Positions 29,841-38,568 of a DNA stretch of 40,398 bases are shown piece after piece (the first letter of the stretch is position 1; every line of letters begins with the position of its first letter). The notes under the pieces are model-generated. The model saw nothing but the letters and a program-made list of their open reading frames with translations. It was not told the origin of the DNA and did no database searches. The DNA comes from Dehalococcoidia bacterium (GTDB taxonomy: Bacteria; Chloroflexota; Dehalococcoidia; CAUJGQ01), in contig DATGEL010000140.1 of NCBI GenBank assembly GCA_035310145.1, positions 1-40,398 of the forward strand, read 5' to 3'. Position numbers and translations under genes: made by a program.

Positions 29841-30257
29841 TTAGCGTGTCAGCAGGCCCGGATTCGTGACGGCGAGCTTGTCCTGCACCGCGCGGCGCAC
29901 GTGGGCGAGAATCTGTTCTCGCGCCGCGCCTTCGTCGGCTGCGCCGGCGCGGATCTGTTCGCAGAGCGCGCTGTTTCGCCGGCGCACCGCATCGCGCAAC
30001 GCCTCGCGGCCGGCGGGCGGCGGTTCGGCGCCGAGCAGCTCGTTCAGCCCCTGCCACTCGCGGGCAAGCTGATCCTCCTCCAGCGCCAGCTCACGGTCGA
30101 GCGTGCGCAGCAGGTTGGCGGCGACGCGCACCAAAAACTGTGTGCGGCCCTCGGTGGCGGGCACCACCTCGCCGTCCAGGAAGCGCTGCACGGCGTCGAG
30201 GATCTCGTGCTGGGTTGGACGGTCTTGCGTGGCCTCACCCCCCGGCCCCCTCTCCAT
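29841..30257 (-). CDS. DUF6285 family protein, start supplied by a cassette repeat
   Basis: A 138-residue helical protein. From residue 11 on (QDRPTQHEILDAVQRFLDGE ... FLVRVAANLLRTLDREL) it matches DUF6285, a family encoded next to APH-like kinases and acyl-CoA dehydrogenases. The native Met expected before QDRPT is missing: that codon is ACG at the edge of the DUF559 cassette. The only upstream in-frame ATG (30255-30257) lies inside the 50-bp repeat and would add MERGPGGEAT. A GTG at 30191 would lose 13 residues. The gene probably remains translated but with an altered N terminus and no visible Shine-Dalgarno. Confidence 0.7.
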   Translation of the reverse strand: MERGPGGEATQDRPTQHEILDAVQRFLDGEVVPATEGRTQFLVRVAANLLRTLDRELALEEDQLAREWQGLNELLGAEPPPAGREALRDAVRRRNSALCEQIRAGAADEGAAREQILAHVRRAVQDKLAVTNPGLLTR

Positions 30258-30277
30258 GGGATGGAGAGGGGGAGGCT
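30228..30277 (+). repeat. REP-like palindrome, left cassette end
   Basis: The repeat reads CGTGGCCTCACCCCC, then a linker, then the hairpin CCCCCTCTCCAT / ATGGAGAGGGGG. It encodes the last residues and TGA stop of the DUF559 gene and an in-frame ATG for DUF6285. Confidence 0.85.
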
Positions 30278-30660
30278 GCGGTACTGGGATTGTTTGGAAG
30301 TCGGGAGATGATCGCGCGGAGGTGATCGAGGACGGCGGCAGGATGGTTGAGGACGTCTTCGTTGCGGAGGTGGGCGACGTGGACAAGGGCTTCGCCGGCG
30401 ATGCTGGCGTCTCGCCAGGCGTCGCGCTCTGGCTGCTCGTCGTGCACCGGGCCGTCCATTTCGACGGCGAGGCGGAGCTCGGGGCAGTAAAAGTCGAGAA
30501 ACCAGGGGCCGAGCCGGTGCTGCCGGCGGAACTTGTGATCATCGAACCGGCGGTTGCGCACCAACTCCCAGAAACACTCCTCCGCCGGCGTCTGCTCCCG
30601 CCGCAGTTCCCGCGCAACCTCCCGTCCGCTCACCAGCGGTTTCCTGTACGGCCCGCGCAT
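30235..30660 (-). CDS. DUF559 (VSR-like) endonuclease-domain protein
   Basis: A 141-residue protein with the DUF559 plan related to very-short-patch-repair endonucleases: ARELRREQTPAEECFWELVRNRRF, KFRRQHRLGPWFLDFYCPELRLAVEMDG and a Leu-rich C-terminal helix. Candidate catalytic residues are Asp56 and Glu67; the usual GGQH after the Glu is GPVH. Activity and targets of the family are largely unknown. The ATG at 30660 follows GGAGG. The last 14 or so codons (SPSHGEGAGG) and the TGA lie in the left repeat, so gene end and repeat are one evolutionary unit. Confidence 0.82.
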   Translation of the reverse strand: MRGPYRKPLVSGREVARELRREQTPAEECFWELVRNRRFDDHKFRRQHRLGPWFLDFYCPELRLAVEMDGPVHDEQPERDAWRDASIAGEALVHVAHLRNEDVLNHPAAVLDHLRAIISRLPNNPSTAASPSPSHGEGAGG

Positions 30661-30686
30661 CCCGCCCTCCAATCAACCCCTCCCAC

Positions 30687-30736
30687 AGCTTCCCCCTCTC
30701 CATTCCATGGAGAGGGGGCCAGGGGGTGAGGCCACG
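30687..30736 (-). repeat. REP-like palindrome, right cassette end
   Basis: An inverted copy of 30228-30277, differing at three positions, all transitions. It ends 2 nt from the TAG of the GalT-like gene. Confidence 0.85.
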
Positions 30737-30738
30737 CC

Positions 30739-31875
30739 CTACCCTCCCACCGCGTCGTCCAGGGCGGCGGCGAGGCGGAAGGGGTCGCTGGAGACGACGC
30801 TGGCCGCGTACAGCTCCATGGCGCCGATGTCGGCCGTGCGCGCCATCGGGTCGCCGCGGTCGACGATGCGCACGACCACGGGGAAGCCTTCCCAGTTCTC
30901 CTCCGTGTCGCCCAACGGCGGCATGTACATCACCAGGTTGAAGCTGGTGACGCCGATGCGGTCGCGGAAGCAGGCCAGCACGTCGTAGATGCGGTCCTTC
31001 AGATCGTCGGAGAGCGAGGGCGCGAACAGCAAGACCTCGTTCTCTTTCTTCGGCACCAGGTTGGCGATCACGCGCACGTCGCCGCGCGAGAAGGCGCAGT
31101 CGATGTCGGCGTGCGCCTCGTACAGGTCGTTGAAGTAGTTGGCGCGGTACTGCGCCTGGTAGAGCAGCGCAGCGCGGCGCAGCTGCTCGACGGCGGCGTA
31201 GTGCATGCCCTTGCCCAACATCACCTGCGCATGGCCGTGCAGCAGCGAGGCGCCCGCCCGCCAGAGGCAGTTCCAGATGTAGAGGTAGTACTGCGCGTCG
31301 GCGTCGATCGCGTTCGCCGCCTCGGCCCAGCGCATGCCGGTGTCGATGTAGTCGTGCAGCGCCTCGCGCGTCCAGGCCAGTGGATGCGGCTCGCGGAAGA
31401 CGACGAGGCCGTGGAAGCCGTCGAACTTGGCGATGTTGCTGGCCGTCACACAGTACTTGCCTTCGATGCGGCCGAAGACGTCTTCCGGCGTGCCGTGGTA
31501 GGGGTCGCGCAGCGGATCCGCCGGCGCGTTCTTCTCCAGCTCGGCCTCAAGGTCGAGCGAGGGCGCCTTCCACATCGGCCGGCTGGAGCGCAGCCAGTTG
31601 AACAGCACGCCCTCAAGCGTGATCTGGTTGGTGACGCGCACGATCTTCTGTTCGAGCGTGGCATCGAGGCTGCCGAACTGCTTGATGATCCAGGGCTCCA
31701 TCTCTGCCGGCGGCAGCAGCCGGCCATGGCTGACGTGGATGTCGAAGATGCGCTCGAACAGGCTGCGCCGCGCGTGGGGCAGCGCCTCCACGATCGTGTC
31801 CAGCTCGGCAATCGTGCGTCCGGGTGCGATGGCCACCGAATTCGTTCCCTTTCCCTCCCGCACGCGCGGGATCAT
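30739..31875 (-). CDS. GalT-like (HIT superfamily) nucleotidyltransferase
   Basis: A 378-residue protein resembling galactose-1-phosphate uridylyltransferase-related enzymes. The active-site motif HGHAQ (213-217) has the nucleotidylated His215 of the HxHxQ pattern, preceded by WNCLWRAGASLL. Other conserved-looking parts are SNIAKFDGFHGLVVFREPHPLAW and LVPKKENEVLLFAPSLSD. It may transfer or hydrolyse a nucleotidyl group on a sugar phosphate; true GalT substrate specificity cannot be claimed. The start ATG (31873-31875) lies within a dyad (31871-31891), and a TGTAAT -10-like hexamer sits 14 nt upstream, so autorepression or a short leader is plausible. Confidence 0.72.
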   Translation of the reverse strand: MIPRVREGKGTNSVAIAPGRTIAELDTIVEALPHARRSLFERIFDIHVSHGRLLPPAEMEPWIIKQFGSLDATLEQKIVRVTNQITLEGVLFNWLRSSRPMWKAPSLDLEAELEKNAPADPLRDPYHGTPEDVFGRIEGKYCVTASNIAKFDGFHGLVVFREPHPLAWTREALHDYIDTGMRWAEAANAIDADAQYYLYIWNCLWRAGASLLHGHAQVMLGKGMHYAAVEQLRRAALLYQAQYRANYFNDLYEAHADIDCAFSRGDVRVIANLVPKKENEVLLFAPSLSDDLKDRIYDVLACFRDRIGVTSFNLVMYMPPLGDTEENWEGFPVVVRIVDRGDPMARTADIGAMELYAASVVSSDPFRLAAALDDAVGG

Positions 31876-35940: not shown

Positions 35941-35975
35941 CCCCACACCCGCTAGAACGCTCAACGCAGGATCGC

Positions 35976-35999
35976 CCCTCTCCCAATCCTGGGAGAGGG
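35976..35999. repeat. REP-like palindrome (half unit), possible bidirectional terminator
   Basis: A perfect 10-bp stem CCCTCTCCCA / TGGGAGAGGG with loop ATCC, between the convergent cdd and alpha/beta-hydrolase stops. It is the hairpin part of the same family as the DUF559 cassette ends, without the CCTCACCCCC tail. Confidence 0.75.
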
Positions 36000-38525: not shown

Positions 38526-38568
38526 CCCCCTCGCCCAGGATTGGGAGAGGGGCCGGGGGTGAGGGCCG
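38526..38568. repeat. REP-like palindrome with tail
   Basis: CCCCTCGCCCA / TGGGAGAGGGG stem (one mismatch) followed by CCGGGGGTGAGGGC, the inverse of the CCTCACCCCC tail in the DUF559 cassette ends. It lies between the convergent P450 and FAD-oxidase stops. Confidence 0.75.

Follow-up and report, generated by a model that had tools for sequence, protein, structure and literature searches.

Few kinds of non-coding DNA are as common in bacteria as short palindromic repeats. For some of their families no spreading enzyme is known: CGTC-tagged REPs have been reported without a dedicated transposase (PMC3733652), and for Box C, a 56-bp repeat with 32 copies according to PMC2267715, citing Bachellier 1999, no enzyme is assigned in the open-access literature searched. 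Published accounts of DUF559 or YcjD-like proteins concern their fold or mismatch repair (PMC1189080; PMC12907096). The DUF559 protein VsrA of Caulobacter has been interpreted as a mismatch-repair nuclease and tied to cytosine methylation and SOS, a DNA-damage response being seen upon loss of the cytosine methyltransferase, in a paper that leaves palindromes unmentioned (PMC12907096). This response suggests that the DUF559 family cuts DNA in vivo. No paper linking DUF559, Vsr or ycjD to REPs or Box C was found in the open-access literature. Here we describe a DUF559 gene enclosed by inverted palindromes in the window, a 40,398-nucleotide stretch of Dehalococcoidia DNA, and compare it with DUF559 loci elsewhere in bacteria.

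Architecture of the window locus

Two palindromes with cores at about 30228-30277 (GGCCTCACCCCCCGGCCCCCTCTCCATGGGATGGAGAGGGGG) and about 30687-30736 lie in inverted orientation and are identical at 47 of 50 positions. The inverted similarity reaches beyond these cores to arms of 69 nt (30213-30281 on the forward strand and 30683-30751 on the reverse strand) that are 87% complementary. Between them, on the reverse strand, lies an open reading frame (30235-30672) of 145 aa from a TTG start codon, with an alternative in-frame ATG at 30660-30658, that matched PF04480 (DUF559) in a Pfam profile search with 91.8 bits (E 3.2e-26; gathering cut-off 20.6 bits) and is predicted to encode a Vsr-like nuclease. 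The enclosure of one DUF559 gene by inverted 50-bp palindromes, as described in the initial annotation, was thus confirmed. So was its claim that the nuclease gene ends inside the left copy, which encodes the 15 C-terminal residues, TAASPSPSHGEGAGG, and the stop codon. The downstream neighbour (29841-30257, reverse strand), called DUF6285 from the outset, was recovered as such in the profile search; its reading frame runs on without a stop into the left palindrome, where an ATG in the same frame lies at 30257-30255. The upstream neighbour (30739-31875, reverse strand; 378 aa), whose stop lies a few bases past the right palindrome core, had been labelled galT-like, a label that found no confirmation, as the protein has no Pfam match.

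Both copies are predicted to fold as hairpins, with DNA minimum free energies of -17.8 (left) and -15.0 kcal/mol (right) and z-scores of -3.1 and -3.6, respectively. The tail of the hairpin is CCTCACCCCC, and no GTAG tag is present at the hairpin foot. The G-rich strand of hairpin plus tail (30228-30277, 30687-30736) carries four G-runs, GGAGAGGGGGCCGGGGGGTGAGG, and the C-rich tail is similar to the hairpin arm; it is conceivable from these letters that hairpin and tail may form a G-quadruplex or triplex. A chance origin of the inverted repeat was ruled out, because a pattern of the same subtype matches exactly at 31 sites of the 5.3-Mb genome versus none for the reversed-pattern control, and because shifted control positions are without inverted flank similarity this strong.

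Two solo palindromes lie elsewhere in the window, at 35974-35999 (CCCCTCTCCCAATCCTGGGAGAGGG) and 38526-38562 (tail GGCCGGGGGTGAGGG; weak fold, z -1.0). They are real, as first proposed, but their kinship to the cassette repeats has to be revised: both have a CCAATCCTGG core, a different subtype that belongs with another DUF559 gene of the host, on contig 28.

DUF559 genes and palindrome subtypes in the host genome

The host genome (5.3 Mb, 148 contigs) holds four DUF559 matches, of which three are intact, and each of the three intact genes has a palindrome subtype of its own. The window gene is flanked by ATGG-type palindromes and the contig 28 gene by the CCAATCCTGG-type, while on the flanks of the contig 15 gene the inverted repeats are nearly perfect and of a third type (TTCTCTCCCATAC...). 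The fourth match, a broken remnant, lacks such a pair of repeats. Copies of each of the three types are scattered through the genome. Besides the 31 sites of the window subtype, the third subtype has 9 exact sites (reversed control 0), and the class pattern that includes the contig 28 type gave 106 matches versus 0, a count that includes overlapping registers of single palindromes. On balance, we favour the reading that this cassette represents a palindromic repeat family in its 'autonomous', nuclease-bearing form and that its nuclease spreads the repeats.

Flanks of DUF559 genes across phyla

We assembled 80 DUF559 loci from named genomes of many phyla, of which 75-77 were used per test. Inverted flank similarity of at least 16 was detected at 50 of 76 testable loci, versus 2 of 476 shifted positions at the same loci; one of the 50 (L123) is a masked-N artefact and was excluded from later counts. 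A palindrome of the class stands on both sides within 400 bp at 38 of 75 loci (38/77 on recount), and the same test returned 0/474 shifted positions, 0/24 PIN genes and 0/27 GIY-YIG genes. The possibility raised at the outset that flanking palindromes might be absent in all relatives therefore fell away, and the association of gene and repeat is strongly supported as general, specific and multi-phylum. Long DUF559-containing reading frames were dropped as a negative control, being largely stop-to-stop artefacts in GC-rich genomes.

Among 55 Chloroflexota loci, 22 carry inverted and 20 direct repeats on their flanks that exceed the 99th percentile of mismatched pairs of flanks. Most of those inspected are hairpin arrays that have CCCTCTCCC/GGGAGAGGG or a near variant as their basis and carry a tail similar to CCCTCACCCC. 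Of the 21 DUF559 loci with a tailed palindrome on each side, 18 have the pair in inverted orientation, the tails pointing inward in 14 and outward in 4, and the window cassette is of the outward kind. The downstream tailed palindrome contains the DUF559 stop codon in 9/33 cases, so a repeat-encoded C-terminus is frequent but not general. The class palindrome is absent from 19/75 multi-phylum and 29/51 Chloroflexota loci, many of which have other repeats, and the DUF559 copies of P. aeruginosa have no flank repeats. Palindrome status is scattered over the DUF559 tree, which is weakly resolved (33 changes versus 34.3 after shuffling); as the status is not clade-bound, no sub-clade of palindrome users can be named. 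At two loci, L231 (G136:C11) and L241 (G120:C18), several DUF559 copies, some of them decayed, are clustered within a few kilobases.

Hairpin, tail and inverted-pair layout resemble those of REP elements (PMC3733652), and the palindromes could accordingly be ordinary REPs moved by a past or present RAYT, with DUF559 as cargo. We regard this as very unlikely. A search for Y1_Tnp/RAYT (PF01797) at E<=1e-4 returned nothing in the host (G000, 99.8% complete) or its sister genome (G001), and a RAYT was rejected as the engine in the host. The missing GTAG tag at the window hairpin also speaks against it, as do CGTC-tagged hairpins, which were found on both sides of 0/77 multi-phylum and 0/53 Chloroflexota DUF559 loci; the count of 0/77 ruled out the CGTC REP class as the DUF559 repeat.

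Small nuclease genes of the GIY-YIG type were inspected in Chloroflexota as well (L160-L189). They are often flanked by GTCATTCC...GGAATCC palindromes (L175, L177, L178, L183-L185, L187 and L189) that have the appearance of CGTC-tagged REPs. Under a strict pattern, such palindromes were counted on both sides of 3/27 GIY-YIG loci and on one side of another 3/27, and the DUF559-type palindrome at none of the 27.

Palindrome load and DUF559 presence

The initial annotation had proposed counting palindromes per genome against the presence of DUF559, and the load does track the gene. Among 251 Chloroflexota genomes, the median number of class palindromes is 20 in the 84 genomes with DUF559 versus 0 in the 167 without (Mann-Whitney p 1e-14; within-family permutation p 2e-4). 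At least five palindromes are nevertheless present in 46 of the 167 genomes without the gene.

Cassettes and present or absent sites

Paralogous cassettes occupy unrelated sites in two genomes, over 598 bp at 93% identity in G165 and over 614 bp at 82% in G218, and in both the homology begins and ends at or near the outer repeats. In one genus, a palindrome array with DUF559 is present in three genomes and the same site lacks the block in two, the fourth genome having a short intergenic stretch and the fifth other sequence; the edges are too unclean for a target duplication to be delimited. As to the cassette of the window, the empty site sought in the sister genome was not found, the sister lacking the neighbour gene. 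Plasmids yielded no empty sites, and Azospirillum chromids keep their DUF559 locus in all seven strains.

The present or absent block at an orthologous site would fit homing by allele conversion, in which cutting by DUF559 would be confined to empty alleles of its site and the palindromes would be the borders of the homed segment. The nearest solved fold of known biology, the homing endonuclease I-Bth0305I, points the same way. Strict homing would not lead one to expect solo palindromes that are dispersed or cassettes at sites that are not orthologous, and we hold this explanation to be extremely improbable.

Another explanation is that other machinery spreads the palindromes, and DUF559 lands within or beside them or becomes trapped between two independent insertions, as intergenic sites of this kind would tolerate insertion. 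Flanking repeats are direct as well as inverted, and palindromes are also present where DUF559 is missing from the genome and in those E. coli lineages that lack the copy adjacent to ycjD, all of which would fit a passenger gene. Against it stand the other small mobile-type genes, PIN and GIY-YIG, which are unflanked by the class, the different subtype at each DUF559 copy, the cassettes with common ends and a host without RAYT. We consider this explanation unlikely, yet of appreciable weight. The flank association, the subtype per copy, the cassettes as units, the load and the RAYT-free host uphold one part of the proposal of the initial annotation, that gene and repeat belong together. For its other part, that the nuclease mobilises or maintains the repeats, we retain spreading by the nuclease as the likelier reading.

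ycjD and Box C in E. coli

ycjD of E. coli, reached via the NCBIfam model NF007294, is a DUF559 gene that is present in 3365/5426 E. coli genomes. In K-12, the palindrome CCCCTCACCCTAACCCTCTCCCCAGAGGGGCGAGGGGA, of the class that flanks DUF559 genes elsewhere, lies downstream of ycjD and a second palindrome overlaps the end of the gene. The palindrome 57-mer is repeated, with a per-genome median of 19 places and a maximum of 33. Box C was first described near fabI (envM), and from the host, the size, the copy number and this location, the palindrome adjacent to ycjD is most probably Box C. In a spread sample of E. coli genomes, those whose best match is full-length, like the ycjD-adjacent copy, have 14-32 places, versus 2-15 places where the best match is another, shorter copy; the correlation of copy number with ycjD is confounded with phylogroup.

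A solo copy between pstA and pstB, the only present or absent site with clean edges, is found in K-12 and absent from other strains. The strains differ by 92 bp, of which 8 bp belong to a direct repeat, ACACGGTT, and 84 bp make up the rest. Insertion with target duplication would be the simple reading of this polymorphism; an ordinary deletion between pre-existing 8-bp repeats could also account for it. The other sites compared are of several kinds. The tusA-zntA solo site is filled in nearly all E. coli genomes sampled, and a few strains (NZ_AP024924.1 and NZ_CP147083.1) are longer there by several hundred bases, which carry a hypothetical protein. Between tkt and ypfG (L334, L340-L343) stands a Box C-like palindrome or a REP-like sequence, GCCGGATGCG, depending on the strain, and at the ygfF-gcvP site the strain difference exceeds a simple insertion. 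The fabI-sapF site carries ycjD and the eef efflux operon as alternatives (L318 and L319 versus L307), in line with a 2026 paper in which ycjD occupies the site of the eef operon of other lineages (PMC12817139). At the K-12 ycjD end (L307:2325-2480), a near-duplication of about 37 bp flanks the overlapping palindrome, and strain 2024CK-00535 (L320) has lost about 107 bp between the near-duplicates, with truncation of ycjD.

The DUF559 protein

The solved structures closest in sequence are 3hrl, a Neisseria endonuclease-like protein that is itself a DUF559 member, and I-Bth0305I (3r3p; E 1e-6). The predicted model gave Z-scores of 14.7 to 3hrl, 11.6 to I-Bth0305I and 9.4 to DNA-bound Vsr. Residues R24, E31, W35, F48, Q51, D60, E71, D73, G74, D84 and R87 are invariant in 24 sequences, and these include the acidic core of D60, E71 and D73. 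DUF559 is thus predicted to be a compact single-domain Vsr-like nuclease of the PD-(D/E)XK type.

The similarity of fold to Vsr would also suit a role in maintenance or repair, in which DUF559 protects or corrects the G/C-rich palindromes, for instance at mismatches or extruded hairpins, or uses them as regulatory sites and nothing moves. The link of VsrA to cytosine methylation and SOS (PMC12907096) is in favour of such a role. It leaves the repeats on both sides of the gene unexplained, as well as the duplication of cassettes and the site polymorphisms, and it appears improbable to us.

Discussion

The computation shows that gene and repeat are associated, that subtypes match, that cassettes have common ends, that copy number varies together with the gene and that solo copies are present or absent. 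That the nuclease moves the repeats is what we infer from these sequence comparisons, as are its part as the cutter, its substrate and the route of copying. In the model that we favour, the DUF559 protein would recognise its own palindrome subtype, a target site or both, the palindrome being read either as an extruded hairpin or as a duplex with the CCCTCACCCC-type tail, and would make a staggered or nicked cut. Repair would then copy or paste the palindrome into intergenic DNA and leave a short direct duplication. Where two palindromes flank the DUF559 gene, the gene would be carried along, and the scattered solo palindromes would be non-autonomous copies of the cassette family.

A wider proposal is that DUF559 proteins are the dedicated mobilisers of a bacteria-wide superfamily of palindromes that includes Box C, and that GIY-YIG proteins serve the CGTC-tagged REPs in parallel. 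We put this forward tentatively, as a possibility somewhat short of probable. If true, homing-type nucleases would stand beside the RAYTs as a second general driver of REP spread, and a role would fall to the widespread, functionally unassigned DUF559 family, whose fold is akin to that of homing endonucleases. A cognate nuclease would also make a direct test possible in E. coli, with ycjD and Box C.

Compared with known systems, the DUF559 repeats are like REPs and REPINs: they are extragenic hairpins, dispersed and asymmetrically tailed, that are frequently arranged as inverted pairs. The gene resembles that of a RAYT (TnpA-REP), in that a single-domain, predicted DNA-cutting enzyme is encoded between copies of its own repeat subtype. 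The enzyme predicted here is Vsr-like and of the PD-(D/E)XK type, however, whereas a RAYT is a Y1 HUH transposase. Unlike REP/RAYT systems, the locus has neither a GTAG or CGTC tag nor a RAYT in its host genome, and one E. coli solo insertion of a DUF559-class palindrome shows an 8-bp direct repeat. As both the RAYT gene and the tag were sought and neither was encountered, we describe the system as REP/RAYT-like but not a member; its partner enzyme and its repeat class differ from all REP systems found in the open-access literature. Of the features of insertion elements and MITEs, inverted arms are present at the window, and the direct repeat occurs at the one E. coli solo copy only. The protein, a member of the YcjD-like/DUF559 family by its profile score, shares its fold and detectable sequence similarity with Vsr and with I-Bth0305I and other Vsr-like (EDxHD) homing endonucleases; unlike the latter, it is without intron or intein context and is paired with palindromes. 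Box C is another close counterpart, agreeing in size and copy number with the DUF559-class palindrome that stands beside ycjD in K-12, and DUF559 is a good candidate for the spreader of such palindromes, apparently including Box C.
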